Both the position numbers and the translations under genes were made by a program. Shown piece after piece: positions 2,700-42,565 of a stretch of DNA of 42,565 bases. The notes under the pieces are model-generated. The model was not told where the DNA came from. It did no database searches and saw only the letters and a program-made list of their open reading frames with translations. Numbering within the stretch: position 1 is the first letter of the stretch; each line of letters opens with the position of its first letter. The stretch is from a virus. The stretch spans positions 1-42,565 of the IMG/VR virus record IMGVR_UViG_3300050821_002084. One strand, 5' to 3'.

Positions 2700-3007
2700 T
2701 CGGGGGCTTTCAATATGGTCCATTCCAGTTCGCTTACCAGCAATTCATCCCTTCGCCTGCGAATCCCGGACAGTTCCCGGTACCGAACTTCATAGGACTC
2801 GACTGGTATGCAGCGTCTTATCAGATCTTTCTGGAAGGACTCACGCAAGGAACTCCTCCTTTCATCGTACCTTTAGGGAATCTGCTTCCGGGGACCGTGA
2901 CTGCACAGTTACCGGCTGTGGGAACTCCAGTATCTCTAGGAACGAATATCCAGCTCACGGTGGCGATGGAAGGCTTGCTCAGTGTGACTTTCAACTTGCT
3001 GCACTAA
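2696..3007 (+). CDS. PASTA-like domain virion-region protein
   Basis: This small protein of 103 residues has an aromatic N-terminal tail (GGFQYGPFQFAYQQF, 3-17) followed by one PASTA-like domain. Seen: VPNFIGL (29-35) for the first strand and turn, a helix around 38-49, then PGTVTAQLPAVGTPV (65-79) and the last strand GTNIQLTV (82-89), the normal order and spacing of the family. PASTA domains usually bind peptidoglycan or act as spacers in cell-wall proteins. Placed directly before the tail accessory gene, it is probably a virion part, and wall contact during DNA entry is an inference. No catalytic or membrane segment is visible. The start overlaps the methyltransferase stop (ATGA). Confidence 0.6.
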   Translation: MIGGFQYGPFQFAYQQFIPSPANPGQFPVPNFIGLDWYAASYQIFLEGLTQGTPPFIVPLGNLLPGTVTAQLPAVGTPVSLGTNIQLTVAMEGLLSVTFNLLH

Positions 3008-3010
3008 TTT

Positions 3011-3973
3011 ATGCCAGGTAATACGACTTCCACGGCCTCTGACATCATTCAGGGGGCGTTACTCAATATCACCGCTTATGCGGTCGGACAACCTCTCACT
3101 AACCAGGTGGCCTCGACCTGCATGCAGGTATTGAACGACCTCTTGGATTCCCTCTCCACCGATCAGGCGTTTATCTACACCCAGACAGAAAACATCCTTC
3201 AATGGAATCCGGGTCAGTTCGAATACACGGTAGGAAATCCAGTAGGTGGAACATTCACCGGGACTCTTACACTGGGCTCTCCGGTTATTACGGGGGCCAC
3301 TGTTCCGGCAGGGGTAATCATTGAAAGCGATATGACGGACGTTCAGTCCCTACTCCCTGCCGATACTGAGGTCTTGGGTACTTCACCGATCACGGTGACC
3401 TTGGATAAGAATGCGATAGCGAATAGTTCCGGATTGGATCTCTTCACCTATACGACCCCGGGAAACTTCAAGATCCCTCGTCCGTTGAGGATCCGTTCCA
3501 GCTTTACCCGTGTAACTAATTCGGCTTCTGCGGGACTCGATTACTGGTTCGATGTCGTTTCACTGGATCGATATAACGAGATAGGACTTAAGAGTGTTCC
3601 GGGTCCATGGCCTTATCTTTGTGCTTATCAGCCTACGTTTCCCTTAGCGACGTTATGGGTCTATCCCAATCCTTCGATTGCAGGGGAAGTACATCTCTTT
3701 ACTGATCTGATCCTGTCGGAGTTTCCGAATCTCACGACCCCGATAAACCTTCCTCAAGGATATAACCGGGCACTAAAGAAACTTCTGGGATTGGAGTTGT
3801 GTCCGCTCTTTGGGAAGACGCCTAGTCCGCAACTGATTCTTCAGGCGAAGGAAGCCAAGAACCTTCTCAAAGATCAGAATGCCTCCCCTGTTGTGACTCT
3901 GAGGTATGACTCGGATCTGGTCAGGAGTCGTCATACAGACGCTGGCTGGATCATTCAGGGCGGATTTCTCTAG
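3011..3973 (+). CDS. Tail accessory factor, P22 gp4-like, with inserted beta domain
   Basis: The N-terminal helical region (STASDIIQGALLNITAY, 6-22; NDLLDSLSTDQAFIYT, 42-57) and the block RPLRIRSSFTRV match the P22 gp4/tail-accessory family, which closes the portal and begins the short tail. The known family block reads roughly YTIG...F..PRP; here it is split by about 70 residues (80-148), beginning GTFTGTLTLG and ending LDLFTY, rich in Val/Thr/Ile. Insertions of the same type occur at 3973-5718 and 38747-40204. The C-terminal helix (NRALKKLLGLELCPLF) is also family-like. The length of 320 is about twice the 166 of P22 gp4, part of which the insertion explains. The next gene starts on its stop codon. 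Confidence 0.75.
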   Translation: MPGNTTSTASDIIQGALLNITAYAVGQPLTNQVASTCMQVLNDLLDSLSTDQAFIYTQTENILQWNPGQFEYTVGNPVGGTFTGTLTLGSPVITGATVPAGVIIESDMTDVQSLLPADTEVLGTSPITVTLDKNAIANSSGLDLFTYTTPGNFKIPRPLRIRSSFTRVTNSASAGLDYWFDVVSLDRYNEIGLKSVPGPWPYLCAYQPTFPLATLWVYPNPSIAGEVHLFTDLILSEFPNLTTPINLPQGYNRALKKLLGLELCPLFGKTPSPQLILQAKEAKNLLKDQNASPVVTLRYDSDLVRSRHTDAGWIIQGGFL

Positions 3974-28097: not shown

Positions 28098-28391
28098 GTG
28101 CCCAGCCGCAAAGGAATTCCAAACCGTATCGGTTCTCAGGTTAAAGAGAACGTTGTAGCTGTATTCACCCGATTGGGCGGAACAGCGGGAATGGCTGAAT
28201 GGGCTAAAGAGAACCTGACAGAGTTCTATCGACTTTATGCCAGACTCATTCCATCGGAAATGACCGCAACCATCGATATCCGGGATGCCACAGAACTTAC
28301 CCGCAGTGAACTCCTCCTTATCGCCTCAGGAAGCAGCACAAGAGCTGCTAAAGAGGGATCTGGCGAGGGAGAGCTTCCAGAGTTTCATTGA
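28098..28391 (+). CDS. Putative terminase small subunit
   Basis: GTG start with AGGA 8 bases upstream. The 97 residues begin MPSRKGIPNRIGSQVKENVV, continue with AVFTRLGGTAGMAEWAKENL and TEFYRLYARLIPSEMTATID: a short basic head and helix pair seen in small terminase-like proteins of podoviruses ('GGxxxmxxWAkeNxxxFYkxxxrLiP'). It immediately precedes and overlaps the large subunit, where TerS belongs. It would recognise the packaging site. The C-terminal third overlaps terL by 107 bases in another frame. Confidence 0.65.
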   Translation: MPSRKGIPNRIGSQVKENVVAVFTRLGGTAGMAEWAKENLTEFYRLYARLIPSEMTATIDIRDATELTRSELLLIASGSSTRAAKEGSGEGELPEFH

Positions 28392-29748
28392 ATACTTACA
28401 GCTCGGGATTACTCCCGCAGTCCACCACCAGCTGCTGATCCGGCACTTGGAAGCCATCGAGCGGGGTGAAATCAAGAAGCTGATGGTCTGGATGCCTCCA
28501 GGCTCGGCTAAGAGTACCTATGCTTCCGTGCTCTTCCCGCCCTGGTATATGGGTCGGCATGAGAAAGATCCGATCCTGGGAGTGTCCAATACGACTGAAC
28601 TCGCTGAACGATTCTCTCGCAGAGCTCGGAATCTCACCTCAGGTACTCTCTACCGGAATGTCTTTGGATTCGGTTGTGCGGAGGATTCTCAGGCTGCAGG
28701 CAGTTGGGAGAACGAGCGAGGCGGGGAGTACTTCGCTGCAGGCATGGGCTCAGCGATTGCGGGAAGAAGAGCAGCTCTGGGTCTTATTGACGACCCCCTC
28801 AAGTCCAGGGAAGAAGCCGACTCAGAGCGAATCCGACAGAAACATTGGGACTGGTACCTGAATGACTTCGTCCCCAGATTGCTTCCCCAAGCGAAGCAGA
28901 TAGTCATTCAGACAAGATGGCACGAAGACGATCTCTCCGGCCGAATACTGGAGAGGGAGAGCAGCCAGTGGACAGTTCTAAAGCTTCCCATGCTCTCGGT
29001 GACCCCAGATCCTCTCAACAGGACCGATGGAGAGCGTCTGTGGGCGGACTTCTTCACCCAGGACATGGTGGACACCGCCAAGAAGGACGTAAGAGCCTGG
29101 AATGCGTTATATCAGCAGGATCCTGCACCGGATGATGGAGAGTATTTCAAACGTGAGATGTTCCAGGAATACTCAGCACCCCCGCAAGCCATGCACATCT
29201 ATGGTGCGAGCGACTATGCCGTTACCGAGGGTGGAGGGGATTACACTGAACACGGGATATTTGGGCTCGATTATAACGGGGACTTATACCTGCTCGACTG
29301 GTGGAGAGGTCAGACTCAAAGTGACGTATGGATTGAGAGACAGTGCGATCTGATCGGGAAACACTCACCCTTGATATGGTTCGGAGAAGGCGGGCCTATC
29401 AGGAAAGCCATAGAGCCATTCTTAAAGCGCAGAATGCAGGAAAGACAAGCACCTTGCCGGTTGGAGTGGATGCCATCCATCGGGGACAAGGTCGTGAGAG
29501 CGAGAGCCTTCCAAGCCAGAGCCGCTATGGGGAACGTCTATTTACCACAATCCGCTCCCTGGCTACCGGATCTCATGAGTCAGCTGATGAGATTCCCGGC
29601 CGGAAAGTATGACGATGGGGTGGATGTCTGTTCTTTGATCGGACGGGGGCTGGAGCACGCAAGACCCCCTCAACTCAAGCCTCCCCCCAAGGCTGAGAGT
29701 GTTCCCAGCCCCCCTCCACGACACGATGGGCTGTCCTGGATGGCCTAA
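28285..29748 (+). CDS. terL: Terminase large subunit
   Basis: The 487 residues hold the ATPase and nuclease of the packaging motor. Seen: Walker A-type WMPPGSAKST (69-78), Walker B LGLIDDP (165-171), coupling motif QTRWHEDDL (209-217), and nuclease acidic residues in GASDYA (308-312, Asp310), FGEGG (366-370) and KYDDGVD (441-447). It is the ATP-driven DNA translocase that also cuts concatemers. The C-terminus is Pro-rich (ARPPQLKPPPKAESVPSPPP). The start at 28285 overlaps terS by 107 bases; GTG 28306 would shorten the overlap only slightly. Confidence 0.95.
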   Translation: MPQNLPAVNSSLSPQEAAQELLKRDLARESFQSFIEYLQLGITPAVHHQLLIRHLEAIERGEIKKLMVWMPPGSAKSTYASVLFPPWYMGRHEKDPILGVSNTTELAERFSRRARNLTSGTLYRNVFGFGCAEDSQAAGSWENERGGEYFAAGMGSAIAGRRAALGLIDDPLKSREEADSERIRQKHWDWYLNDFVPRLLPQAKQIVIQTRWHEDDLSGRILERESSQWTVLKLPMLSVTPDPLNRTDGERLWADFFTQDMVDTAKKDVRAWNALYQQDPAPDDGEYFKREMFQEYSAPPQAMHIYGASDYAVTEGGGDYTEHGIFGLDYNGDLYLLDWWRGQTQSDVWIERQCDLIGKHSPLIWFGEGGPIRKAIEPFLKRRMQERQAPCRLEWMPSIGDKVVRARAFQARAAMGNVYLPQSAPWLPDLMSQLMRFPAGKYDDGVDVCSLIGRGLEHARPPQLKPPPKAESVPSPPPRHDGLSWMA

Positions 29749-29772: not shown

Positions 29773-30498
29773 ATGCCTGCTAATCCAGGGCCAGCCATAC
29801 AAGGCCTGCCCAATGTTGAAGCGTTCATCTCCACCGGACCCGTTCAGAGAGTCATTTACCCGACTCTCTTTACCAACGGGAACGCGATAGGAAACGGGAC
29901 ACTGAGTCTGCAGTATTACCCGTGTAACTATCCTGTGACGGCTACACGCCTCGATCTGTTGCTTAACCAGCTCATAGCTACAGCGGGTACGACAGCGACG
30001 GCTGCGGCCCTCTACACAGCTATAGGTGGGATCTACTCGACCTATGCGAGCACGAATACCGCAGGCAGTACGGGAGCCTTAACCCTACTCTCTCAGGGCT
30101 CAACGACCAATTCCTTTACCTGGGCGTCTAATAGCGCGGGAAACACTAATCTCAGTGTAAGTGCTATCCGTCCTGTATCGGTTCCGGTGAATATCAACAT
30201 GCAGCCTGGAGAGTATTTCGTAGCGATGGGGATCTCGACCACTAACAGCAGTGTAGGACTGTCTACAACGGCTTTAGCGTGGTCACTGTCCGTGCAGGCG
30301 GATCTCGCTATGCAGACTGCGGTGAACTATGCGGAGCCCGGAGCGGCAACGAACGCCAGTAACGGGTTGTATGGGGCGATGGGCGTATATTCCGCGGCCA
30401 CGGGAACGCTCCCCATCACCATGTACCAGACACAGGTGAACCAGACCGGAGCGAATCAGCTCGACGGGAACTATGCCTTTGTGATGCGTAATTACTAA
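29773..30498 (+). CDS. Stand-alone fibre/decoration module protein
   Basis: The 241 residues start MPANPGPAIQGLPNVEAFIS and end with the same module as the left-end gene and 36951-38384: RPVSVPVNINMQPGEYFVAM, a Ser/Thr strand region, GLYGAMGVYSAATG and the end FVMRNY. It is thus a whole protein made of that C-terminal domain with a short N-terminus. It stands between terL and portal, an uncommon location. The role is inferred as capsid decoration or adhesion. AAGGAGA lies at 29759-29765. The stop overlaps the portal start (TAATG). Confidence 0.7.
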   Translation: MPANPGPAIQGLPNVEAFISTGPVQRVIYPTLFTNGNAIGNGTLSLQYYPCNYPVTATRLDLLLNQLIATAGTTATAAALYTAIGGIYSTYASTNTAGSTGALTLLSQGSTTNSFTWASNSAGNTNLSVSAIRPVSVPVNINMQPGEYFVAMGISTTNSSVGLSTTALAWSLSVQADLAMQTAVNYAEPGAATNASNGLYGAMGVYSAATGTLPITMYQTQVNQTGANQLDGNYAFVMRNY

Positions 30499-32636
30499 TG
30501 CCTCAGCTTCCCAGTCAGTCCCACCAGCCGGCGACCAGTAAGGCTGAGATTGTCTCCGAGTGTTTAGAACGATTCCGGATAGCTCAGGAGGCAGAGAGCG
30601 AGAATAGACAACAAGCCGTATTAGATCTGGAGTTCGAGGATGGTCAGCAGTGGCCGGACGACTTGTACAATCTCAGGAAGGTATCAAGGCGTCCCACTCT
30701 CACGATCAATCACACGCGAACTTTCGTCAGGCGTGTGGTCAATAACATGCGCCAGCAGCGTCCCCGGATCAAGGTCCACCCTGTGGGAGAGGGTGCGGAC
30801 ATGGATCTGGCCCAGAAGGTCCAGGGGGTCATAAGGCACATCGAACAACGTTCAGATGGAGCTACTGCATATGATGTGGGTGGAGAGTCCGCTGTTAAGA
30901 TTGGCTGGGGTTACTGGCGAGTACTCTCTGAGTACATCGACGCCAATAGCTTCGAGCAAGAACTCAAGCTCCTGCCCATCAGGAACCCCTTCACCGTATA
31001 TGTGGATCCAGCTTCAATACTCCCATCCGGTGAGGATATGGACTGGTGCATCATCTCCGAGAAGATGAAGCGCAGTGAGTTCGAGCGAAAGTACCCGGAT
31101 CAGCAGGAACAGCCCTTCCATGAGGGGGCTAGCGGGGATCAGGGAACGGAGTGGGAGACCAAAGAGGAAATACGCCTCGCTGAGTATTTCCGCATCGTCA
31201 AGGTCAAGGATTCACTGCTCAAACTCTCTGACGGTAGATCCATCTACGAAAGCGAATACCGGAAGGGAAAACAGGCTTTTGATACCGCTCAGCTCTCGAT
31301 AGCTAAGAACCTCCAGGGTAAGGAGATCCGTAGACCTACTTATCGAAGAAAGATCGAGTGGCACCGATTGAACGGGTTCAACGTGGTGGAGAGCATCGAG
31401 TTACCCGGTCAGTGGATCCCGGTTATCCGGTGTGAGGGAAACGTCCTCGATCTGAACGGGAAGATCCGTAGACGTGGAATGGTCCGGGACATGATGGATG
31501 CGGGGAGGATGTATAACTACTGGCGCACCTGTGAAACAGAAGTAATAGCTTTAGCTCCTAGAGCCCCCTGGATGGGTACAGCGAGACAGTTTGACGGGCA
31601 TCCGGAGTGGAATGACGCTAATCAGAAACCCTATTCCAAGCTCACCTATACCCCGGATTACATCGAACAACCGGATGGGTCCAAGACCCCTCTTCCGCCT
31701 CCCACCCGCACTGAGCCGGTAGCGATTCCCGCAGGGTTTGTGCAGGCGGCTGAATCTGCGGCCAAGGACATGATGATCCTGGCCGGAATGCCTCACGAGC
31801 CGGGTCAGGATAAGGCTGGAGAGGTGATATCGGGCAAGGCCCTCAGAGAACGTCAGTCTCTCTCCGATATCAGTCACTTCCAGTACTACGACAACCAGAC
31901 CCGGGCGATAGCCCATACCGGCAGGATTCTCCTGGACCTGATCCCCCATTACTACTCGGAAGCGAGGATGCAACGGATCATCGGGGATGATGGTGTTCCG
32001 CAGACTATCGAAATGAACCAGTTTGACCCGAACATCCAGAAGATCAAGAACGATGTCACGGTAGGTCGATATGACGTGGTCATGGATACCGGTCCCGGCT
32101 ATGAAACGAAACGGATGGAAGGTGCCGAGGCTCTGCTAGATCTAATGAAGACCCCGATGGCCGAGCCGGTCATCAAGGTTGCAGCGGACCTAGTGGCTAG
32201 GAACCTGGATATCCCAGGCGCTACCGAGCTCGCAGACCGTCTGGCTCCGCTCACTCCTCAGGGTCTGGAGAAGGCCATCAAGTCTCTACCTAAGGAAGCC
32301 CAGGGCATTGTGACCTCGATGCAACAGCAGTTGACCCAGGCCCAACAGACCATCCAGCAGTTACAGCTTGAGATCAAGTACAAGATGGGTGTCGAGCACA
32401 TGCGATCCGTGACGAAGGTTCACGATACCGAGGTCCGGGCAGAGACCGCCCAGAAGGATACTGAGGTCAAGGCGAAGACCGCCATGCATGACACGGCTGT
32501 AAAGAGCCAGACCGCTATAGATGTCGCTACGATTCAAGCCGGAGCGACCCTGATCGACACCGGCATGCAAGCCTCTCACGAGAGGCAGTTAGCCAAAGAG
32601 ACTGCAAAAGCCGCTGAAAAGGCAGAGAAGAAATAG
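30498..32636 (+). CDS. Portal protein, P22 gp1-like
   Basis: The 712 residues are close to P22 gp1 (725). Family blocks: SENRQQAVLDLEFEDGQQWP, RPTLTINHTRTFVRRVVNNM, RQQRPRIKVHP, the IRNPFTVYVDPAS and the middle HRLNGFNVVESIELPGQWIP, all in order. It forms the 12-fold ring at the capsid vertex through which DNA passes. The last 100 residues are a long helix with Thr/Ala/Lys heptad-like repeats (KDTEVKAKTAMHDTAVKSQT), matching the barrel extension known for P22. The start overlaps the previous stop. Confidence 0.93.
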   Translation: MPQLPSQSHQPATSKAEIVSECLERFRIAQEAESENRQQAVLDLEFEDGQQWPDDLYNLRKVSRRPTLTINHTRTFVRRVVNNMRQQRPRIKVHPVGEGADMDLAQKVQGVIRHIEQRSDGATAYDVGGESAVKIGWGYWRVLSEYIDANSFEQELKLLPIRNPFTVYVDPASILPSGEDMDWCIISEKMKRSEFERKYPDQQEQPFHEGASGDQGTEWETKEEIRLAEYFRIVKVKDSLLKLSDGRSIYESEYRKGKQAFDTAQLSIAKNLQGKEIRRPTYRRKIEWHRLNGFNVVESIELPGQWIPVIRCEGNVLDLNGKIRRRGMVRDMMDAGRMYNYWRTCETEVIALAPRAPWMGTARQFDGHPEWNDANQKPYSKLTYTPDYIEQPDGSKTPLPPPTRTEPVAIPAGFVQAAESAAKDMMILAGMPHEPGQDKAGEVISGKALRERQSLSDISHFQYYDNQTRAIAHTGRILLDLIPHYYSEARMQRIIGDDGVPQTIEMNQFDPNIQKIKNDVTVGRYDVVMDTGPGYETKRMEGAEALLDLMKTPMAEPVIKVAADLVARNLDIPGATELADRLAPLTPQGLEKAIKSLPKEAQGIVTSMQQQLTQAQQTIQQLQLEIKYKMGVEHMRSVTKVHDTEVRAETAQKDTEVKAKTAMHDTAVKSQTAIDVATIQAGATLIDTGMQASHERQLAKETAKAAEKAEKK

Positions 32637-32638
32637 CT

Positions 32639-33610
32639 ATGGGTAAAGTCATCACGTCCAAGGGTCTAAACGAGTTCGTGGAATCAGGGAAAGTGACTCA
32701 CGTCCCTGACCATCAGGAGAAGCCCGCAGAGCCAACTAAAGCGGAAGTGGCTAAGGTAGAGCCAGTTGAGGTTAAAGCCCCTCCTGAGGCTCCTAAAGAC
32801 GATGACGAGACTGTTCCAGTACTCTCCGAGGACTCCCGGAAGTATGTGAATAAGCAGCACCGGTTAAGGAAAGAAGCCGAGGAACAGGCCCAGGATGCTG
32901 AGAGGTTTGCCAAGGACCAGTACACCCGTGCTGTTCTGGCAGAACAGAGAGCCGAACAGCTTGCAAAGGACCTGGAGGAACACCGTAAGAATGCTCCTCC
33001 AGCTCCCAAAGAGCCCGAATTAGTCGAACCTAAAGAGGATGATCCTCAATGGATAGAGAACGGCCAGTTCAACTGGCGCAAATTTACTAAAGCTCAGGCG
33101 ACCTATGAGGCCGCGAAAGCAGTCAAAGAGGAACGTGTCAAGCAGGCTGAAGAGAGAGCCCAGGCTGACCGGGCACAACACGAAGCGAAGATTCGAGCAT
33201 CGGCGGAAGACGCGAGGAAAGAGTATTCCGATTTCGATGCAGTGATGGAGAGTGCAAAGGGTACTGAAGCGGACATGGTTCCGCAGTTCGTCTTGAATTA
33301 CATCTATGAAAGTGATCTTTCGGCTCAACTGGCCTATCACTTAGCCAAGAACCCGGAAGAGTCACAGCGAATTGCGAAGATGAAGCCCATCCTCGGACTC
33401 GCCGAGTTGGGAAAGCTCGCGGACAAGCTCACCGCTAAACCTCCGGAAAAGATCCCGGAGCCGAAGCTAGAGACTCCCGAGCGCACCGGAGCACCCCCAC
33501 CCATAACACCTATAGCAACGACGGCTTCCGGGACTGTGAACACAGATCCTGCCCGGATGAGCTTTGCCGAGTTACGGGCATATGAGAGGCAGCGCAACAA
33601 GAAGCGCTAG
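32639..33610 (+). CDS. Scaffolding protein, P22 gp8-like
   Basis: The 323 residues (P22 gp8: 303) are highly charged and helical: Lys/Pro/Glu-rich N-terminal part, a central coiled coil (NKQHRLRKEAEEQAQDAERF; ERVKQAEERAQADRAQHEAK) and a basic C-terminal end (FAELRAYERQRNKKR) like the helix-loop-helix with which P22 scaffold binds the coat. It directs assembly of the procapsid and then leaves. Portal-scaffold-coat order is that of P22. Confidence 0.85.
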   Translation: MGKVITSKGLNEFVESGKVTHVPDHQEKPAEPTKAEVAKVEPVEVKAPPEAPKDDDETVPVLSEDSRKYVNKQHRLRKEAEEQAQDAERFAKDQYTRAVLAEQRAEQLAKDLEEHRKNAPPAPKEPELVEPKEDDPQWIENGQFNWRKFTKAQATYEAAKAVKEERVKQAEERAQADRAQHEAKIRASAEDARKEYSDFDAVMESAKGTEADMVPQFVLNYIYESDLSAQLAYHLAKNPEESQRIAKMKPILGLAELGKLADKLTAKPPEKIPEPKLETPERTGAPPPITPIATTASGTVNTDPARMSFAELRAYERQRNKKR

Positions 33611-33642: not shown

Positions 33643-35001
33643 TTGACTCAGCAACTGCTGACGATGAGCTATATCACCAATGAAGCTCTCGTCGTGCTCG
33701 AAAACGAATTGGTGATCGCTAATCGTGTTGAACGCCAATATTCAAACGAATTTGCGCAGACCGGAGCGAAAGTCGGAAACACAGTCAATATCCGCCGTCC
33801 GCCCCGTTATATTGGTACTTACGGTCCTCCGCTGAATGTGGAAGACACTTTTGAGACCTATGTCCCGGTAGTTTTGAACTACCAGTTCCATGTGGACGTT
33901 CAGTTCACGACCCAGGATCTCGCTCTCTCGATGGATATGTTCAAGAAGCGGATCCTGAAGCCCCAGATAGCGACTGTAGCTAACCGCATTGATGCGGATT
34001 CCGCTCAGTACTTCACGCTCTCCACGGCGAATTCTCTGGGAACTCCCGGAGTTCAACCGGCCAGTTACAAGATCTTCTCGGATGCGAGAGCGATCCTGGC
34101 ACTGGAAGCCTGTCCGACGGAAGGTGAGAAGAACTGCGTACTGGACCCGATCTCCATGTCTGCGGCGACGGATGCGATCAAGGGACTCTTCAATCCCCAG
34201 GCCCGGATCTCGGAATACAACGAGAAGGGTATGGTGGCTAAGGAGTTTGCAGGACTTGATTGGTGGGAAGATCAGAATATTCTGAGCTTTACTACAGGCG
34301 CTCAGGGTGGAACTCCGACCATACCCGCAACGGTGGCCGGAACGGCTCTCCTGACCGCTGGTTGGGCAGCTTCCGGTACTTTGGAGACCACGGGCTGGAC
34401 GGCTTCTACCGGCGTAATCAAGGTCGGGGATGTCATCCAGATATCGAACGTCTATCCCGTCAATCCGCAGAACCGCTTGCAGTACGGTCGGACCACTAAA
34501 CAGTTTGTGGTTCTGCCTCCGGGTGGATTCCAGACCCCACCGAATGGTGCAGCGACAACCGGTATCTACTTTGCTGCCGCGTCACTCAATAACGGGACGT
34601 TCAACAACCTCACGGGTGTCTACACCTCGACGAGTGGTGGACTGCTGACATTGACTATCGGAGATGCATTGATCTCTGCCGGTCAGTTCCAGAACGTCAC
34701 CGCCGCTCCGACGGGAACGGTGAATACCATCACGGTGAACGGTGGAACCGGAAATGCTGCAACGGTGAGCCCGCAGGGACTTGTCTTCCACAAGTATGCC
34801 TTTGCACTGGCCTTTGCGGATCTTCCGCTCCCGCAGGGAGTGGAGATGGCCGCCCGAGCCTATGACGATGAGGATGTGGGGATGAGTATCCGCTGTGTCA
34901 CCCAGTACACGATAAACAACGATTCCGAGCCTACCCGAGCGGATGTGCTCTATGGTCCGGCATCGCTGTATCGTTCGCTCGGTATGCGGATAGCCGGATA
35001 A
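33643..35001 (+). CDS. Major capsid (coat) protein, P22 gp5-like
   Basis: The start is TTG 33643, supported by AGGAG (33631-33635) at proper distance; the next ATG (33664) has none. The 452 residues (P22 coat: 430) contain TQQLLTMSYITNEALVVLEN, GNTVNIRRPPRY, FTTQDLALSMDMFKKRILKP and the C-terminal KVGDVIQISNVYPVNPQ and DDEDVGMSIRCVTQYTINND, in the order of the P22 coat family with an inserted middle domain. It builds the T=7 shell. Probably the most expressed gene; the rare TTG would set translation below its maximum. Confidence 0.9.
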   Translation: MTQQLLTMSYITNEALVVLENELVIANRVERQYSNEFAQTGAKVGNTVNIRRPPRYIGTYGPPLNVEDTFETYVPVVLNYQFHVDVQFTTQDLALSMDMFKKRILKPQIATVANRIDADSAQYFTLSTANSLGTPGVQPASYKIFSDARAILALEACPTEGEKNCVLDPISMSAATDAIKGLFNPQARISEYNEKGMVAKEFAGLDWWEDQNILSFTTGAQGGTPTIPATVAGTALLTAGWAASGTLETTGWTASTGVIKVGDVIQISNVYPVNPQNRLQYGRTTKQFVVLPPGGFQTPPNGAATTGIYFAAASLNNGTFNNLTGVYTSTSGGLLTLTIGDALISAGQFQNVTAAPTGTVNTITVNGGTGNAATVSPQGLVFHKYAFALAFADLPLPQGVEMAARAYDDEDVGMSIRCVTQYTINNDSEPTRADVLYGPASLYRSLGMRIAG

Positions 35002-35011
35002 GGAGAGACAT

Positions 35012-35494
35012 ATGGCTAATGTCAATCCTGGTCCTGCCGTAACAGCAAACCCGAACAGTGTTGCGGGTTACATTCCGGTTAACACACAGACCAATGCCAA
35101 TCCGGTCCTGACGAATGCTCAACGGTTGATAGCGGAATATCGGGGATTTAACTGCGCAGCCGCAGGGGATTACCCGATGCCGGTATTCGATTCCGCCCGA
35201 TTCGTTCCGACCAGTGTTTGGTTTGCGGTCAATGCATCGACGACTGTAGCGGCGAGTGCGGCGTTTCTGTCCGGAGCTTCAGTGGGGGTATATGCCGCCA
35301 CGGGTGGAACCGGAACTGCACTCGTCACAGCCGTAGCGGGACCCACATTGGGTGCGAGTCTGAGTTCAGTCACGACAGGTACTGTCATAGGTACTACGGC
35401 GGTGACTGCACAGACTCTGTATTTCCGGGTGGGAACTGCTGCGAGTACTGCAGCCTATTTCGATGTTTTCCTGTTTGGAGTGGACATCACATAA
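35012..35494 (+). CDS. Putative capsid decoration protein
   Basis: The 160 residues start MANVNPGPAVTANPNSVAGY and are Ala/Thr/Val-rich beta strands (TTVAASAAFLSGASVGVYAA; TALVTAVAGPTLGASLSSVT), ending YFDVFLFGVDIT. Position directly after the coat with an AAGGAGA Shine-Dalgarno suggests a high-copy head protein. NPGPA is shared with 29773 and 16566. Not recognised as a known family. Confidence 0.65.
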   Translation: MANVNPGPAVTANPNSVAGYIPVNTQTNANPVLTNAQRLIAEYRGFNCAAAGDYPMPVFDSARFVPTSVWFAVNASTTVAASAAFLSGASVGVYAATGGTGTALVTAVAGPTLGASLSSVTTGTVIGTTAVTAQTLYFRVGTAASTAAYFDVFLFGVDIT

Positions 35495-35511
35495 AAGCAA
35501 ATATCCGGGTG

Positions 35512-36219
35512 ATGGTGGCGACCCCCACGTATGACTACCAGTTATGCGTGGACTACACCTCATCCCTCATGGCGACCAGCATCCATCTCACACATTTAGG
35601 GATAGATGCCAGGGCTAAGTTTGTAGCCGGGTTGTGCTTCATAGACCTCGCAAGAAACGATCTGGTGAAGCACTTCCTGGCGACAGACTGTACGGATATT
35701 TTCTTTATCGATGCAGATGTGGGATGGGACTGGAGAGCGGTCTCCAGATTCCTGTCCTACCGACAATCCATCGTAGCCGGACTGGTTCCGAAGAAGTGGG
35801 CACCGGATGCTGGAGATAGACCTCCATTCCACGATAATGCCCTTACTGGGGAGACAGAAGACGGTTTACTCGCAGCTCTGGAGGCTCCTACGGCCTTCAT
35901 GCGGGTGAAACGGCACGTATTCGAGATCCTGGATGCAGCCTATCCGCACTACAAGGACTACAACACGATGGAGAGAGGAATCCCCTACTTCCAGACCGGG
36001 TATTACAAGGACCCGGAGAAAGGGGATATTTCCTTTATGGGAGAAGATATTTTCTTCTGCCGGCAGTGGTGTCGGTTGGGAGAGAAACTGTGGATAGACC
36101 CGAACGTGAACTTCTCCCACCGGGGAAGCAATGCCTGGAAGGGCAATCACGTCGAGTATTGTTTTGAAGTCGGTAAACTGACCAAACTAGACGAACCGCA
36201 GATGAGTTCTGCGGCTTAA
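35512..36219 (+). CDS. GT-A type glycosyltransferase-like protein
   Basis: Starting at ATG 35512 (or GTG 35509) it has 235 residues. A longer frame back to 35218 is a shadow of the previous gene. Seen: MVATPTYDYQ (1-10), FIDLARNDLVKHFLAT, then IFFIDADVGWDW with a clear DxD, AGLVPKKWAP, MRVKRHVFEILDAAYPHYKD, and GEDIFFCRQW plus a late HRG, the family 2 (GT-A) series. It stands among decoration proteins, with a weak Shine-Dalgarno. It would transfer a sugar to an unknown acceptor; the neighbouring Ser/Thr-rich virion proteins are candidates. Similar in layout to 357-1097. Confidence 0.7.
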   Translation: MVATPTYDYQLCVDYTSSLMATSIHLTHLGIDARAKFVAGLCFIDLARNDLVKHFLATDCTDIFFIDADVGWDWRAVSRFLSYRQSIVAGLVPKKWAPDAGDRPPFHDNALTGETEDGLLAALEAPTAFMRVKRHVFEILDAAYPHYKDYNTMERGIPYFQTGYYKDPEKGDISFMGEDIFFCRQWCRLGEKLWIDPNVNFSHRGSNAWKGNHVEYCFEVGKLTKLDEPQMSSAA

Positions 36220-36228
36220 GGAGATTTT

Positions 36229-36570
36229 ATGCCGGGTCCTGCTGATGTTGCCAAAGGCAATGAAATATTGAACATGATTGCCTATGTGGCCTCCGTAACG
36301 ACTCCCAACCTGGGAGCGAATGCTTCGGCCACAACTACTCTTACACTGAATGGAGTCCAGTCTTTGGACTGTATCGGCTGGAACATGCAGGCTCCTCCTG
36401 CCCATCTGGTCATCGATAATATCTATGTATCCTCGACCAACACTCTGACCATCCTATGGGGAACGGATGGCACGGGAATCTCGCCCACTACAGTAGCTGT
36501 GCTATTTACAGTGGAACGTGCGACCAATGCCGCTTTTGGCACGGCGGGTCTTCCGACCATCATCCAGTGA
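36229..36570 (+). CDS. Small virion/decoration protein
   Basis: The 113 residues begin MPGPADVAKGNEILNMIAYV. The rest is strand-like: ATTTLTLNGVQSLDCIGWNM, PAHLVIDNIYVSSTNTLTIL, ending with GLPTIIQ. The PGPA start is like the NPGPA starts in the neighbours. Good Shine-Dalgarno (AAGGAGA). It is located between a glycosyltransferase and the module cluster. Not recognised; virion location inferred. Confidence 0.6.
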   Translation: MPGPADVAKGNEILNMIAYVASVTTPNLGANASATTTLTLNGVQSLDCIGWNMQAPPAHLVIDNIYVSSTNTLTILWGTDGTGISPTTVAVLFTVERATNAAFGTAGLPTIIQ

Positions 36571-36573
36571 TCT

Positions 36574-36933
36574 GTGTACGATGTAAGACCGTTCCAGCCA
36601 CTTTATGGGCCTAGTGCCGGTCCTAATGCTGGAAACTTCGTATCCAGTCTGACCCTTTCCGCTTCCACGACGGCGGCTTCCGGTGCACTCCCTGGGAACA
36701 TAGGGACTAATGATTTCTGTCAGATCCAGATCGCCAATACCACGACCGGTTGGGCTTATGTAAATTGCGGTCGGACTACGCAGGAGATGTCTCCCGCAAC
36801 AGTCGCGGCGGGGTATCCCGTAGCTCCAGGAGGGGTGGTCGTTATCAGCGTTCCGAGTGAAGTAGCCGTAGTGGGAGTGATCTTAGGTTCTTCATCCGGG
36901 TCCGTCGTCTTTACCCGGGGAGTCGGCTCCTGA
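36574..36933 (+). CDS. Decoration protein, module B copy 1
   Basis: This GTG-started 119-residue protein has the pattern FQPLYGPSAGPNAG, FVSSLTLSASTTAASGALPG, WAYVNCGRTTQEM, VAAGYPVAPGGVVVIS and GSVVFTRG. The same module is present at 38385-38747 and in the C-terminal part of 40206-41057, so it has been triplicated. It looks like a compact beta domain with the Asn-Phe-Gly-Arg (here CGR) turn. No other phage domain was recognised. Probably a decoration or fibre component. Confidence 0.65.
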   Translation: MYDVRPFQPLYGPSAGPNAGNFVSSLTLSASTTAASGALPGNIGTNDFCQIQIANTTTGWAYVNCGRTTQEMSPATVAAGYPVAPGGVVVISVPSEVAVVGVILGSSSGSVVFTRGVGS

Positions 36934-36950
36934 TCAAGAATCTGGGAGCT

Positions 36951-38384
36951 GTGGCAGGTGGAGCAGGCTCCCTCAGTATCTCAGCCGGCGCAGCTTCGGG
37001 AAATCTGGGCTCTCTCGTATTCTCGAATTCCAACGGAGTCTCTTTCGGGCTGAACGGCTCCACGATTACCGGCTCTGTAGCAGCAGGAGCTGCGGCAACC
37101 GGGATCAGTGGTATCGTCGTCAGTAATACGACCTATACGAGTGGTACGGTCAGTTTCAGTAACGCCAACGGGTTGAGTTTCGGGTCGAGTGCCGGACAGG
37201 CGATCACGGGAAGTTATACTGTCCCTGGATCGACCAATTTCTCCAACTCCAATAATGTTTCGTTTGGACTGAACGGTTCGACTATTACGGCTACGGCTAG
37301 TGTTGCTGCCCAGACTGGTATCAGTGGGATCATTCTCAGCAACACGACTTATACCAGTGGAACAGTCTCTTTCAGTAACGCTAATGGGGTCAGTTTCGGA
37401 TCTTCTGCGGGACAAGCTGTAACCGTCAGTTATAACAGTACATCCGCTGTAGGACCGAATACCGCTCAAACCAACGTCACCTGGACGGTGAACAGTAGCG
37501 GTATCAGCGTCAATGCTGCAGGCTATGCAGGAACCGCTACGGCAAACACTGGATTAGCCTCGTTCACGTTGAATTCTGCGGGCTTGAGCTTTAACGGTTC
37601 GAGTCTTCTCGGAGCTAATACCGCTCAGACAAACGTGACTTGGACCGTCAACAGTTCCGGCATAAGCCTGAATGCCGGAGGATACGTAGGGACGGGCTTT
37701 ACTACAGGAACGACTACGGGCTCCTGGACTGCCACTCAGAATACGGCCGGGTTGAGTATGGTGATGCCGTACTTCACCCGCTTTATCTGGCCGATGGCGA
37801 ATCTGACGCCTCTCACCGCTCCCGGAGCGGCCCTGCAGACGATTCAGTATGTGCCAGTGAAGATAGCGATGACCGGCAGTCGGCTCGATGCGCTGCTCGC
37901 GATGTCGAATAGTTCATCTGCCGGGGCTGGTACGGTGACGCTCCAGTTCTCCCAGTACGCGATCATCTACACCAAAAATGCCAGCACGCTCTCCTCACTG
38001 TCATCTGGTTCGACACAGACCACTTATACCTATGCATCCAATACTGCCGGTGCCACATATCTCACCAATAGTGCCATCTACCCAATCTCGGTTCCCATCA
38101 ACTTCAACATGGTGCAGGGTGAATATTACGTCGGGTTCAATCTGATCACTTCCACCACGGCTGCGAGTGTCACGATGTCCATGATGGGTGGAAATGCTAT
38201 TGGGACTGCACTGAACTATGTCGAATTCGCTAATACCGCAACCAGTACCAATGTGTACGGAGGTATGGGTGTCTATTCAGCGGCCACTACAGGTGTCGTG
38301 ACGCGAGTTTCGGTGTCCGCTATCAATCAGACCGGTTCCGCCCTTTCTGCTGCCAACATTGCTCTAGTCTTCAGGAATGCCTAA
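36951..38384 (+). CDS. Fibre protein with NGVSFG repeats and module D end
   Basis: The 477 residues contain in the N-terminal half five or more copies of a strand-turn repeat built on FSNANGVSFG, followed by GSTITxS (for example VFSNSNGVSFGLNGSTITGS), plus two copies of AQTNVTWTVNSSGIS. These repeats occur in many metagenomic phage fibres and probably form a beta-prism or triple helix. The last 215 residues are module D: MPYFTRFIWP through GEYYVGFNLI to the end ALVFRNA. It is the complete version of the architecture divided over the two window ends. Start GTG 36951 has GGGAG very close (2 bases), so the true start is uncertain. Confidence 0.7.
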   Translation: MAGGAGSLSISAGAASGNLGSLVFSNSNGVSFGLNGSTITGSVAAGAAATGISGIVVSNTTYTSGTVSFSNANGLSFGSSAGQAITGSYTVPGSTNFSNSNNVSFGLNGSTITATASVAAQTGISGIILSNTTYTSGTVSFSNANGVSFGSSAGQAVTVSYNSTSAVGPNTAQTNVTWTVNSSGISVNAAGYAGTATANTGLASFTLNSAGLSFNGSSLLGANTAQTNVTWTVNSSGISLNAGGYVGTGFTTGTTTGSWTATQNTAGLSMVMPYFTRFIWPMANLTPLTAPGAALQTIQYVPVKIAMTGSRLDALLAMSNSSSAGAGTVTLQFSQYAIIYTKNASTLSSLSSGSTQTTYTYASNTAGATYLTNSAIYPISVPINFNMVQGEYYVGFNLITSTTAASVTMSMMGGNAIGTALNYVEFANTATSTNVYGGMGVYSAATTGVVTRVSVSAINQTGSALSAANIALVFRNA

Positions 38385-38747
38385 ATGCCAGTCAGTAAAC
38401 CGTTTCAACCCATGTATGTGCCGAACTCTGGGAATGCAGCCGGTACTCTTGTATCCAGTCTGACTATTTCCGCTACCTCAACGAGTGCGACTTCAGGAGC
38501 GTTGCCCGGGAATGTGGGGCTGAATGAACTGAACCAGATACAGATTTCCAACACGGTTGCGGTCTGGGCCTATGTGAACTTCGGACGAAACACGACTGAA
38601 ATCCCTGCAGCTACAGTGGCTGCGAGTTATCCGGTTCCCCCCTCAACGGTGATAGTCGTCACGGTGACGAGTGAAGTCGCAGCTGTGAGCGTGATTCTTG
38701 CTAGTTCAACTGGATCGGTGATCTTTACTCGCGGAACGGGTGTCTGA
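38385..38747 (+). CDS. Decoration protein, module B copy 2
   Basis: The 120-residue protein is the second stand-alone B module: KPFQPMYVPNSGNAAGTLVS, ATSGALPGNVGLNELNQIQI, WAYVNFGRNTTEIPAATVAA and SEVAAVSVILASSTGSVIFT, ending RGTGV. It is closest to the module in the fused gene at 40206 (shared block AAVSVILASSTGSVIFTRGT), so these two are the most recent copies. The ATG is one base after the previous stop; the last base is the first of the next gene. Confidence 0.65.
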   Translation: MPVSKPFQPMYVPNSGNAAGTLVSSLTISATSTSATSGALPGNVGLNELNQIQISNTVAVWAYVNFGRNTTEIPAATVAASYPVPPSTVIVVTVTSEVAAVSVILASSTGSVIFTRGTGV

Positions 38748-40204
38748 TGTCGTTATTCACGCAGGGAGGCTCAATAGCTGTAGCCCCTAGCGGGCTGATG
38801 TTTTCAGATGGGGGTGCCGGCGGAATCAGCAATGGAGCCTCCGTGACCATCACGGGTGGCCCATTCGGTACTAAATCAGGCAGTAGCCCGAGCATCTGGG
38901 ACCACGGACAGGACGGGGCGGGGGTATTGAATGCTGGCTGGTCCGGAGCTTGGCCCAACGCAGCAGGCAACTCGATTGCCAATACGATCAACCGTGCTCA
39001 ACCCTTTCAGGCGCTGGGTTCTTCCACGATCAACGGTCCTCATCCTTACACGACAACTTTTCTTGCAGGGAACCACTATCAAAGTGGAGCGTTTGCGGGT
39101 AACAACGTCATGCCCTACGTGGCGTTCTCGACTCCTGCACTGCCTTACTATTCGTATTGGAGCTGGTACACCCGGGATGATCCTCAGTGGTGGCATTCCA
39201 TAGCGCCGTTTGAGATTAATTTCACGGGAACCCTCGCGAGTGGAAACAACGTCATCACGGCGATTTCCAGCTTCACCTGGCTCGATTCGACCTACATCGG
39301 AGCCTCTATCAGCGGGACTGGAATACCGTCCTCTTCAAGCATCACGGCCATTAATTCAGGTGCTGGAACCATCACAATCAATAACAATGTCACGGCCAAC
39401 GGAGCACAGGCTTTACTTGCAATCCAGGTCGGATTCGATAACAACAACAAGCGCTATGATTTCTCCGCTGCCTCGACTCCGTATGACACCAGCGTGGGTA
39501 ACTGGTATCTGACTTACGCCGACTATCGGGGAGTTGGGAATTTCCAATTCTCCCACCCCACCTCCAACACGGATCTGACCGCCAAGAATGGCATTCTCGA
39601 CGATACGGGAGGAGCGTTAACCAACCCGGATCAAAATGGGCACAATGCTTTCTGGCGGGATGGGAATAATCCTACGAATGTGAGTGAAGGGGTGGGTGGC
39701 AATGGATGGCAAAAAAGCGAATTACTGATCAAGTGGACGACTGCAACGACCGGCTATGTCAAGTACTTTGAGAACAATACATATCTGGGTGGTGGTCTTC
39801 TTGTAGTCGATTACGCGGGCAAGACCATCTATACCGGCATTACTTCGGCATCGGAATCCATAGGGGGTTATTCGCGCCGCCAAGGAGTGGTTCCGGCTGA
39901 TACGACCCATTATCTTTCGACCGGTACTGCAGGGACTTACACTCTGTGGAGATACTATGCTGATGTTTATTATGACCGTCAGACTACCGGTCAAGCCAGA
40001 TTCGTGATGACGAATTCTGCGACCTATGTACTGGGGGATGGGAACATCGTGGAGATTCAGCCCTATACCGCGTGGGCCAACGGTTCAGTCACTCTCACGA
40101 TCAACAAGGGAAATCTATCGTCCGGGACTGCAAAGATCTGGTTTGTGGATGAGGTCAATGGAGTGAGCACTCCAGCACTCCAAAGCACCATTACGCTGAA
40201 CTGA
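38747..40204 (+). CDS. Large fibre/adhesion protein with IPT-like and lectin-like parts
   Basis: This 485-residue protein has near its start GISNGASVTITGGPFGTKSG (26-45), an IPT/TIG-like opening, then a WSWYTRDDPQWWHS (138-151) and large Trp/Tyr-rich beta strands (GNWYLTYADYRGVGNFQFSH; YTLWRYYADVYYDRQTTGQ), as in concanavalin-type sugar-binding sandwiches, and an end domain AWANGSVTLTINKGNLSSGT. Residues 158-227 (FTGTLASGNNVITAISSF to NVTANGAQALLAI) are an extra domain that interrupts the sandwich and resembles the insertions in the gp4- and gp10-like genes. No catalytic residues were identified. It probably binds a polysaccharide. Confidence 0.65.
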   Translation: MSLFTQGGSIAVAPSGLMFSDGGAGGISNGASVTITGGPFGTKSGSSPSIWDHGQDGAGVLNAGWSGAWPNAAGNSIANTINRAQPFQALGSSTINGPHPYTTTFLAGNHYQSGAFAGNNVMPYVAFSTPALPYYSYWSWYTRDDPQWWHSIAPFEINFTGTLASGNNVITAISSFTWLDSTYIGASISGTGIPSSSSITAINSGAGTITINNNVTANGAQALLAIQVGFDNNNKRYDFSAASTPYDTSVGNWYLTYADYRGVGNFQFSHPTSNTDLTAKNGILDDTGGALTNPDQNGHNAFWRDGNNPTNVSEGVGGNGWQKSELLIKWTTATTGYVKYFENNTYLGGGLLVVDYAGKTIYTGITSASESIGGYSRRQGVVPADTTHYLSTGTAGTYTLWRYYADVYYDRQTTGQARFVMTNSATYVLGDGNIVEIQPYTAWANGSVTLTINKGNLSSGTAKIWFVDEVNGVSTPALQSTITLN

Positions 40205-40205
40205 C

Positions 40206-41057
40206 ATGACACTGTTAGTAGGACAAAACGGAAACGGCTGGACGATCATCGGGGCTAATCCATGGGGCACCGGTGGGAATGCGATCTATTACAAGAACGG
40301 GTATACCGCCATTGCTGGGGCAATGGCAACAATCAATGTGACGGTGCAGGCGACGGCCAGTGCTACGCTTGCTACGGTCTATGTTTATAGCGGCACCGGT
40401 GTAGGCGCATCGTTTGTCGCGATGTCCGCCGAGTTCAGCGTTAGCACTACTGGTGCTAAGACAGCAGCGATTTCAGGCGTGTTGTCGGCGGGTCCATATA
40501 CGCTCGTACTGCAAACGCCTAGTGGATCTTTCCAGGTTGCCGTAAACAGTGGTAGTTCCGCGTCTGCGGATAACCAGAACAACTTAGCCAGCTTTCCGTA
40601 TCGTTCACCCCCCGGAACTATTCCGGCGGTTACGGTTAATTCCGGGCAGGAATTTATCATCTGGATTGATGGAGCAGTTTCTGGTGGTGGTACGCTGCCT
40701 TTGCTATTTGCCCCTTTTCAGCCGCTCTATGGGCCTAATTCCGGTCCTAATGCTGGGACTCTAGTCTCCAGTCTCACTATCTCTGCTTCTACGACAGCGG
40801 CTTCCGGAGTTCTTCCCGGAAACACTCAGTTAAATGATTTTAATCAAATTCGGATTGCAAATACCGCAAGCGATTGGGCCTATGTGAACTTCGGACGTAA
40901 CACTACGGAGATCGCAGCCGCAACGGTAGCCACTGGTTATCCGGTCGCTCCGGGTGGAGTAGTCGTCGTAACAGTGACGAGTGAAGTCGCGGCCGTGAGC
41001 GTGATCCTGGCGAGCTCGACCGGATCGGTGATCTTCACTCGGGGGACTACTCCATGA
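40206..41057 (+). CDS. Fusion of module C and module B (decoration/fibre protein)
   Basis: The 283 residues consist of module C (1-165: VGQNGNGWTIIGANPWGTGG, NAIYYKNGY, VTVQATASATLATVYVYSG, SGQEFIIWIDGA) and module B (170-283: FAPFQPLYGPNSGPNAG ..., VFTRG-like end VIFTRGTTP). Module C alone is the next gene (41054-41560); module B alone is 36574 and 38385. A fusion of two modules that occur separately beside it is direct evidence for domain shuffling. Stop and next start overlap by ATGA. Confidence 0.65.
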   Translation: MTLLVGQNGNGWTIIGANPWGTGGNAIYYKNGYTAIAGAMATINVTVQATASATLATVYVYSGTGVGASFVAMSAEFSVSTTGAKTAAISGVLSAGPYTLVLQTPSGSFQVAVNSGSSASADNQNNLASFPYRSPPGTIPAVTVNSGQEFIIWIDGAVSGGGTLPLLFAPFQPLYGPNSGPNAGTLVSSLTISASTTAASGVLPGNTQLNDFNQIRIANTASDWAYVNFGRNTTEIAAATVATGYPVAPGGVVVVTVTSEVAAVSVILASSTGSVIFTRGTTP

Positions 41058-41560
41058 GTAAATTAGTCGGTCAGGATGGTACTGGCTGGACAATCGTAGG
41101 GGCTAACCCGTGGGGTACTGGCGGGAATGCGATCTACTATAAGAACGGATACAGCGCTATCGCGGGAACGATGACTAATCTGCACTTCACGGTTCAGGCT
41201 ACTGCTGGCGCTACTCTTGCTACAGGTTACGTCTATTCAGGCGTGGGACCGGGAGCTTCATTTGTCGCAATGTCGAATGAGATCAGTGTGAGTACGACTG
41301 GGGATAAAGCTCCAGCTATCTCCGGATCTCTTCTGGTTGGACCTTATACCATTATCTTGCAAACCTCTGCCGGCTCCTTCCAATGTGCAGTGAACAGCGG
41401 CAGTAATAACTTCCAGGATAACCAGAATACGACGGTAAATTTTCCTTATCGGGGACCTCCTAGCACACTTCCGGCACTCGACAACAACTCGGGTCAGGAA
41501 TTCGTCATCTGGGTTGATGGCATGCTCGCAGGGGGCGTGTCTTTAGCGTGGACTACCTGA
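41054..41560 (+). CDS. Module C stand-alone protein
   Basis: The 168-residue protein is the separate form of module C: MSKLVGQDGTGWTIVGANPW, GTGGNAIYYKNGYSAIAGTM, VQATAGATLATGYVYSGVGP, SGQEFVIWVDGML. Near-identical blocks with the first half of the upstream gene (for example GANPWGTGGNAIYYKNGY) show a recent tandem duplication. Likely a beta-sandwich; role unknown, in the decoration/fibre cluster. Confidence 0.65.
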   Translation: MSKLVGQDGTGWTIVGANPWGTGGNAIYYKNGYSAIAGTMTNLHFTVQATAGATLATGYVYSGVGPGASFVAMSNEISVSTTGDKAPAISGSLLVGPYTIILQTSAGSFQCAVNSGSNNFQDNQNTTVNFPYRGPPSTLPALDNNSGQEFVIWVDGMLAGGVSLAWTT

Positions 41561-41561
41561 T

Positions 41562-42565
41562 ATGCCAGTTAGTATCTTTCATGCCCTGACGGCGACTACG
41601 CCGGATAACACCAACTTTGAGATCCGGCCCATAGCGCACTGGAATGCCTCTCACTTAGGAACATTCAGTGCGACAGCGGGAAGTGAGATTATCGGGGCAT
41701 TCTCCAATACCAATGGAGTGTCTTTCGGGTTAAGCGCAGGCCAGGTAACGGCTTCTGTTATTGGCGGTCAGCCGCTTATTTCCGCGGGGACGACCAGTAA
41801 CAATCTCTCGCAGATCGTATTTTCTAATGCTAATGGACTGAGCTTCGGTCTGGCTGGTTCGACCGTGACCGGGAGTTATTCCAATCCCAACTTCTCAGCC
41901 GGAACGACCAGCAGCAATCTGGCTTCCGTGGTGTTCTCGAATGCGAATGGAGTGAGCTTCGGACTCTCAGGCTCGACCATTACCGCTTCTGTTCCCGGAG
42001 GGGGAGGAAGTACCCTGACCTTCATTGGGAAGGGAAACACTATCGGACAATCTTCTTCCAGTACTTTCCCTTTCAGTGCGGTTTCGTTTGACTTCGCGGG
42101 GGCTATCAGCGGTGGGATGAGCGCGGGATCGCTGCTCATTTCTGCTCCCGGGACAGTGGCTCTGACTCAGTTCTCTGGCGGTATGTCCACTCAGGGGAAT
42201 ACTGCGGGGACTACAGGACTGGCTACCGCTCAACTGGTGATAGTGGGTTCTAATAACATCTCGCTCTCCCAATCCTTCAATCTAGGCAGTGCGACGCTTT
42301 CGATCATCGGGACAGGTGGACTCGCAATAGCTGCGAGCAATACGACCTTCAGTAGTGGGACGGTGGTCCTATCTGCGGCAGGTGGAGCACTGACTATCTC
42401 CAGTGGGGCTCAATCGGCCCTGTTCTCGGTCCCTGCGACTTCTTCCCTGGTGGGAGTCAGTGGGCTTACGGTTTCTACGGCAGGTTCCACGATCAGCGTG
42501 GGGATGATCCCGCTATCAAGAGAAGATTTCTGGCCCTTGGGGCAGAGTACTTCTCAGCAGCAGAC
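41562..42565 (+). CDS. Fibre protein with NGVSFG repeats, cut by right edge
   Basis: ATG 41562, one base after the previous stop, opens a frame with no stop to the window end (at least 334 residues). It starts MPVSIFHALTATTPDNTNFE and has three copies of the NGxSFG repeat (FSNTNGVSFGLS, FSNANGLSFGLAGSTVTGSY, FSNANGVSFGLSGSTITASV), then Gly/Ser/Thr-rich strands (IVGSNNISLSQSF), and ends at MIPLSREDFWPLGQSTSQQQ, which aligns with MPYFTRFIWPMANLTPLTAP of 36951-38384. Module D should follow; a matching second part is at bases 1-357, but the direct joining is out of frame. Confidence 0.75.
   Translation, partial: MPVSIFHALTATTPDNTNFEIRPIAHWNASHLGTFSATAGSEIIGAFSNTNGVSFGLSAGQVTASVIGGQPLISAGTTSNNLSQIVFSNANGLSFGLAGSTVTGSYSNPNFSAGTTSSNLASVVFSNANGVSFGLSGSTITASVPGGGGSTLTFIGKGNTIGQSSSSTFPFSAVSFDFAGAISGGMSAGSLLISAPGTVALTQFSGGMSTQGNTAGTTGLATAQLVIVGSNNISLSQSFNLGSATLSIIGTGGLAIAASNTTFSSGTVVLSAAGGALTISSGAQSALFSVPATSSLVGVSGLTVSTAGSTISVGMIPLSREDFWPLGQSTSQQQ

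Follow-up and report, generated by a model that had tools for sequence, protein, structure and literature searches.

What is to be made of a run of repeated, partly fused and fibre-like genes lying between the coat gene and the tail adaptor gene of a podovirus: does it reflect nothing but shared compositional bias, is it a set of tail fibre genes, or is it a site at which the virus enlarges the surface of its own particle? The stretch that raises this question is the IMG/VR record IMGVR_UViG_3300050821_002084 (positions 1 to 42,565, i.e., the whole 42,565 bases, hereafter "the window"; the genes of the late operon and the slot described below lie on its + strand), in which a sequence-only reading had discerned four recurrent module types, designated A, B, C and D, that were held to be shuffled, duplicated and fused, possibly for capsid decoration or adhesion. 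Comparison with related phages makes it probable that this region is a hypervariable slot for virion-surface display, which was expanded by duplication and fusion and is accompanied by a mobile cassette combining a fibre tip with glycosylation genes.

Module B is present three times, at exactly the sites proposed earlier: as the last gene before the variable slot, a position conserved among relatives (copy 1, 36574..36933), as a second stand-alone gene with 63% identity to the first (copy 2, 38385..38747), and as residues 170-281 of the protein encoded by 40206..41057. The homology of the three holds both in BLASTP (E 3e-41 to 3e-47) and against shuffled controls (z 49-52 for whole-sequence shuffles and 21-27 for local-composition shuffles), and copy 1 was further placed by profile searches and a tree. 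In profile searches of 120-odd IMG/VR loci, fetched with coat, B and D, the B gene belongs to a conserved block directly following the coat gene; wherever B was found among the larger records (23 of 39), there was one copy, and only the window phage has three among the records searched. The three copies form one clade (support 0.92, 67-73% DNA identity), which also takes in the first B gene of L004, a near-identical contig. An apparent fusion of B to other modules in two relatives (L090 and L099) was rejected, the 201-amino-acid (aa) open reading frame being a start-codon artefact in which B begins at about residue 76. As an AlphaFold monomer, B is predicted to be a confident beta sandwich (predicted local distance difference test, pLDDT, ~95), which resembles many ~100-aa proteins of uncultured phages in BFVD (target-normalised TM-score 0.7-0.84 for most top rows), while the top Foldseek matches include the spore-appendage protein Ena and viral capsid sandwiches.

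The third B copy is joined to module C, which makes up residues 1-164 of the 40206..41057 product (delimited by BLASTP and structure prediction) and recurs as a stand-alone gene directly downstream (41054..41560); the two C copies share 70% identity (BLASTP E 1e-78, shuffle z 76), so that this pair, too, had been recognised correctly. B and C do exist both alone and fused, as had been claimed, the C+B fusion being seen in the window phage only and absent from the relatives examined. No relatives of C were found in IMG/VR, in the 48 related records (a search run without a positive control) or in INPHARED, and INPHARED likewise gave no match for the A+D or C+B proteins. The proposed expansion by duplication and fusion is borne out for B and C by the support of the B clade, by the single B of the relatives and by the restriction of C+B to this phage: in the history of the window, B was duplicated twice, one B was joined to C, and C was duplicated. 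Candidate relationships of B to C or to the products of its upstream neighbours (35012 and 36229), and of C to D, gained no support in pairwise tests; altogether, no sequence relation was detected among B, C and D, or between them and those two neighbours, in the pairs tested.

Modules A and D tell a different story from the one first proposed. The repeat motif of A, N[GN][VLI]SFG, occurs four times in the 36951..38384 product and three times in that of 41562, with at most one in 500 shuffles, and the similarity of the D copies, namely a stand-alone 241-aa protein encoded between the TerL and portal genes (29773..30498; 39% identity to the D of 36951, E 3e-27), the C-terminal 200 aa of the 36951 product and the gene divided between 41562 and 1-357, is equally genuine by BLASTP and shuffles (E 3e-27 to 2e-7, z 8.5-29). 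Both observations of the sequence-only reading therefore stand, whereas the separately listed A (41562) and D (1-357) belong to one gene halved by the contig break: in the sister phage L012, a single 524-aa protein covers 41562-42563 with its residues 1-333 and 1-354 with its residues 407-524, so that 41562..42565 (N-terminal domain and A repeats, 83% identity) is the 5' part and 1..357 (D domain, 86% identity) the 3' part of a second A+D fibre gene, and a stand-alone D at 1-357 is ruled out. About 217 bp are absent between the window contig ends according to the DNA comparison with L012, and no terminal overlap joining these ends was found. The intact L012 gene spans both ends, which makes this genome circular or permuted and gives each A copy a D tip; the contig represents a nearly complete genome of this kind, broken inside one fibre gene. 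In both window genes, as in relatives of 480-1900 aa, A is N-terminal and D C-terminal (in 36951..38384, shaft A at residues ~20-275 and tip D at 277-477, as judged from BLASTP, the repeats and structure), and free shuffling of A and D is unsupported, A+D being one fibre architecture. The longest family member seen is a 1900-aa D-tipped protein (L135:2928-8630), and orthologues of the 29773 protein are found near TerL/portal in other phages.

The D domain is predicted as a fairly confident beta sandwich (pLDDT blocks mostly ~70-89, with one loop near 34), the top fold match of which is 9jwb_Z, a chain from the asymmetric unit of the cyanophage A4 capsid (VIA Z 12.9, 158 residues, root-mean-square deviation 3.5), followed by the Douge central fibre (residues 474-685, Z 12.2) and the Bxb1 tail tip (Z 12.0). 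These matches extend over 158-167 residues, and the next rows reach Z <=9.0, while sequence homology between D and the A4- or Douge-type proteins was undetected. The A repeats, presumed to be the shaft of the D-tipped fibre, remain unfolded in the AlphaFold monomer, with low shaft pLDDT.

How does the region look in related phages? The conserved block consists of the coat gene, a 35012-type gene (~158 aa), sometimes a glycosyltransferase-like gene, a 36229-type gene (~111 aa) and B (~118 aa), after which there is a slot of zero to seven genes, followed by the tail adaptor and Hc3; this order, with its variable slot, holds in about 100 related IMG/VR contigs. Since the gene content differs even between close relatives while the flanks are conserved, the slot is a hypervariable site. 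L012, for example, has both flanks in common with the window (82% DNA identity from the coat gene through 36229) and other cargo between them: a D protein, a GH123-like 712-aa protein (L012:4762-6897, itself within the late operon slot) and a 314-aa protein, in place of the A+D, second B, 38747, C+B and C of the window. The 485-aa window cargo protein encoded by 38747..40204 has its first 28 aa weakly like those of the GH123-like cargo of L012; a module common to 38747 and the adaptor was rejected as probable iterative-search drift (direct BLAST E ~0.5-0.7). In the cargo of other relatives, Pfam recognises chitobiase C-terminal domains, GDSL domains and a combination of beta-helix with CBM4_9, and recognisable slot cargo looks carbohydrate-active or carbohydrate-binding.

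The D genes, moreover, rarely stand unaccompanied. Either directly or within a few genes, they are followed by a putative GT2-like glycosyltransferase gene, GT354 (354..1097 in the window; phrog_12406 glycosyltransferase, E 0.0017), and then by a methyltransferase gene (2127..2699; S-adenosylmethionine methyltransferase, PF08241 E 4e-5, phrog_6636 E 5e-13), often together with a sugar epimerase gene (1102..2130; nucleotide-sugar epimerase/dehydratase, PF01370 E 3e-47, phrog_540). This order recurs at three genome positions (D by the portal gene, after the coat gene or after B), and the GT354-methyltransferase pair trails D regardless of whether the latter is a 240-aa protein on its own or lies C-terminally in a longer one, with lengths reaching 1900 aa. 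Among contigs fetched regardless of D, 10 had both D and GT354, two D only, two GT354 only and 80 neither (Fisher p 4.6e-10), and the two were found together in seven of the 29 larger coat-family records (p 5e-6), with both p-values ignoring the relatedness of the phages. A few D genes are without GT354 in the available stretch (e.g., L018, L124, L125 and L137), some of them near a contig end, and the lone larger record with GT354 only encodes an A-repeat fibre with an apparently diverged D directly upstream of GT354. What the sequence-only reading had missed, then, is that the slot is a hypervariable locus shared among these phages, and that D is accompanied by a glycosyltransferase and a methyltransferase; no published description of either the D-glycosyltransferase-methyltransferase set or the variable slot was found in the literature searched.

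A role in capsid display or adhesion, as suggested at the outset, is plausible because B belongs to the conserved post-coat block and because D has the fold of both an A4 capsid chain and the fibre tip of Douge, a tip-containing fragment of which binds host glycans. In the mechanism that we would propose, B would be a decoration domain that docks on the capsid, and the C+B fusion would thereby display C on the head; the A+D proteins would form trimeric fibres or spikes, with A as the shaft and D as the tip contacting cell-surface or environmental glycans; and the fibre bearing D, or proteins next to it, would receive a methylated glycan made by GT354, the epimerase and the methyltransferase. 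Duplicated and fused copies might then let the particle bind more kinds of surface or shield it more extensively, with primary host recognition being left to the tailspikes proper (10443 and 11534). The more demanding proposal, that soil podoviruses carry a mobile, self-glycosylating cassette of D, glycosyltransferase and methyltransferase inserted at varying points of the virion block and, in addition, that B is a natural capsid anchor for C, is put forward tentatively.

Several observations weigh against surface display as outlined here. The best Z for B in the PDB is only 7.5, within the range of common sandwiches, so no close counterpart could be accepted; sequence homology of B, D and the 35012 and 36229 products to known cement or capsid-surface proteins was undetected; the monomer models of C and of the A repeats are of low confidence; among the ten cargo proteins scanned, six are without a Pfam match; and GT354 is assigned as a glycosyltransferase only weakly (Glycos_transf_2 E 0.013, below the Pfam cut-off). 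The association p-values, given the kinship of the phages, overstate the independent evidence, which is offset to some extent by the differing positions of the cassette and by a similar gene set in the more distant podovirus ctKR88. Further negative results concern the families themselves: neither Pfam nor PHROG provides a family for any slot display protein, no Ig-like (Hoc-type) domain was matched at E <= 1 by Pfam in ten slot and post-coat proteins, and neither a comparison of B with the Pam1 cement protein (hhalign) nor one with PDB sequences gave a match, the single-sequence comparison being weak.

The explanations that compete with display are not mutually exclusive. It might be supposed that the slot genes encode only tail fibres or tail-associated receptor-binding proteins, with B being a small tail or neck protein: the far boundary of the slot is, after all, the tail adaptor gene, the D fold is found in the tail fibres of Douge and Bxb1, fibre-like repeats with a C-terminal tip would fit, and some of the slot cargo resembles glycan-degrading tail proteins. 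This we regard as somewhat unlikely, as the P22-like tail genes (adaptor, Hc3, ejection proteins and the tailspike-like 10443/11534) come after the slot, B occupies the post-coat block where Pam1 has its cement gene, and the chain that D matches best belongs to the A4 capsid asymmetric unit. Phage glycosyltransferases can have O-antigen or DNA as substrates, and GT354, the epimerase and the methyltransferase might accordingly alter the surface of the host, for antigen conversion or superinfection exclusion, or modify phage DNA, their adjacency to D being incidental; that these genes belong to the late structural operon and come directly after D at three genome positions, and that D and GT354 coincide across records, makes this unlikely, as does the virion glycosylation reported for mycobacteriophage Che8, with phage-encoded glycosyltransferases (cited in PMC11256854).

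Could the extra copies, on the other hand, be of no consequence at all? That those of B and C are unique to the window phage among the records searched would be expected if they were neutral duplications heading for loss and adding no display function, yet all of them are intact, tightly packed open frames that have stayed free of stop codons while their DNA identity fell to 64-73%, and we consider such a fate improbable. Least credible is the notion that the module similarities are a mere low-complexity bias towards Gly, Ser and Thr: the window slot proteins are indeed rich in G, S, T and A, and the A repeats are unfolded in the model, but the shuffle controls, the significance retained by B, C and D in SEG-filtered BLAST and the confident folds of B and D (pLDDT ~95 for B and ~80-89 for D) contradict it for B and D so plainly that it hardly needs to be entertained. 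Surface display remains the most probable reading.

The surroundings of the slot agree with a P22-like podovirus, as indicated by matches to TerL, portal, scaffold, coat, gp10-type head-closure and DNA-ejection proteins; the phage is what we term a soil-type podovirus, and the slot part of a P22-like late operon. This operon starts with the terminase large subunit gene (TerL, 28285..29748; phrog_38 E 1e-101), the nearest matches of which are freshwater cyanophages, e.g., Pam1 (49% identity), and continues with the genes for the portal (30498..32636; phrog_156 E 4e-113), the scaffolding protein (32639..33610; phrog_8865 E 6e-28) and the P22-type major coat protein (33643..35001; PF11651 E 5e-34), the portal, scaffold and gp10-type head-closure (phrog_578) genes occurring in the P22-like order. 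The gene run from TerL to 41562 is gapless, with spacings of -4 to +32 nt. Directly 3' of the coat gene lie a small conserved gene (35012..35494; 75 loci by hidden Markov model, HMM), the position of which matches the cement gene of Pam1, a probable GT-A-type glycosyltransferase gene (35491..36219; function from the DAD motif alone, no Pfam match), present in an equivalent place in some relatives (14 loci), and a second small conserved gene (36229..36570; ~90 loci by HMM). The far end of the slot is marked by a small PASTA-like gene (2696..3007; PF03793 E 1.4e-5), the family of which precedes the adaptor in ~10 relatives too, and by the conserved tail adaptor gene (3011..3973; phrog_12985 E 4e-32, a weak match to the phrog_637 head-tail adaptor, and its position in relatives), the profile matches of which are split or doubled in several relatives. 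An inserted module of ~80 aa is common to this adaptor (residues 81-158) and the head-closure protein encoded by 3973-5718 (residues 150-232; BLASTP E 1e-5). The adjacent tailspike-like genes 10443-11537 and 11534-13591 are alike in their first 109 aa (51%), which match the N-termini of the Pam1/Pan3 tailspikes, and can be read as two copies of one tailspike anchor whose distal parts differ. No tRNA and no Rfam family were found in the window, nor was there a reverse transcriptase (PF00078) match indicative of a diversity-generating retroelement in the record, which lacks ~0.2 kb. Microbispora was considered as a host and set aside, the only bacterial-genome match of the coat protein, a 39-kb contig in a Microbispora metagenome-assembled genome, being too weak to name one.

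Capsid decoration and fibre proteins are familiar, but little is known beyond cultured phages about their expansion through fusion to an anchor domain or their pairing with a glycosyltransferase and methyltransferase of their own, and it is these two parts, the fusion to an anchor and the mobile cassette of fibre tip and glycosylation genes, that specialists would want tested. The comparison yields testable claims for a widespread uncultivated lineage: is B a capsid anchor; is D a glycan-binding tip; do GT354 and the methyltransferase sugar-coat D? If so, the natural capsid-anchor fusion would be a scaffold for display that needs no engineering, and a glycosylation cassette specific to a fibre would give a new handle on the shielding or steering of phage surfaces, in a virus that may enlarge its own surface as well as coat it with sugars.

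Against known systems, the arrangement is at once familiar and distinct. Pseudanabaena phage Pam1 (cement protein PDB 7eel), the nearest sequenced relative by TerL, also has its cement gene directly after the coat gene; it has, however, just one cement gene (140 aa) and lacks a slot ahead of the adaptor, and no match of its cement protein to 35012, 36229 or B was obtained at sequence level. The fold of D recurs in ORF25 of cyanophage A4 (Anabaena phage A-4L; PDB 9jwb chain Z), the gene of which adjoins that of a tail fibre protein also matching D weakly (Z 5.8); unlike the window D, which is often C-terminal on a repeat fibre, ORF25 stands alone, and no glycosyltransferase/methyltransferase cassette is annotated alongside it. 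In Douge, the same fold is located at the tip of the trimeric fibre (gp20 residues 485-688), and a construct of this tip with the C-terminal domain bound mycobacterial lipoarabinomannan/arabinomannan (LAM/AM) and alpha-glucan fragments (PMC13033339); Douge and Bxb1 are, in contrast, long-tailed siphophages, and the Douge tip precedes another domain, whereas the window D is C-terminal and encoded between the coat and the tail adaptor genes. In mycobacteriophage Maravista, a relative of Che8, the glycosylation genes are near the 3' genome end and the major capsid protein is reported to be the acceptor, while GT354 is tied to one fibre-tip family together with a methyltransferase, the D-bearing fibre being its putative acceptor. 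The closest parallel to the cassette comes from podovirus ctKR88 (MW202524, Manatee Spring), whose slot between the coat and stabilisation genes holds a 598-aa A-like fibre, a methyltransferase, a GT354 homologue (58%) and a further methyltransferase; it differs in its extra genes annotated as glycosyltransferases, B being undetected in the proteins tested and D undetected by HMM. Three genes with glycosyltransferase-type annotations lie there between the coat and the A-like fibre genes (L149, MW202524.1, 3147-7307) and suggest a larger glycan pathway. Each ingredient of the window arrangement, be it a cement protein, a fibre tip or virion glycosylation, has a known counterpart.

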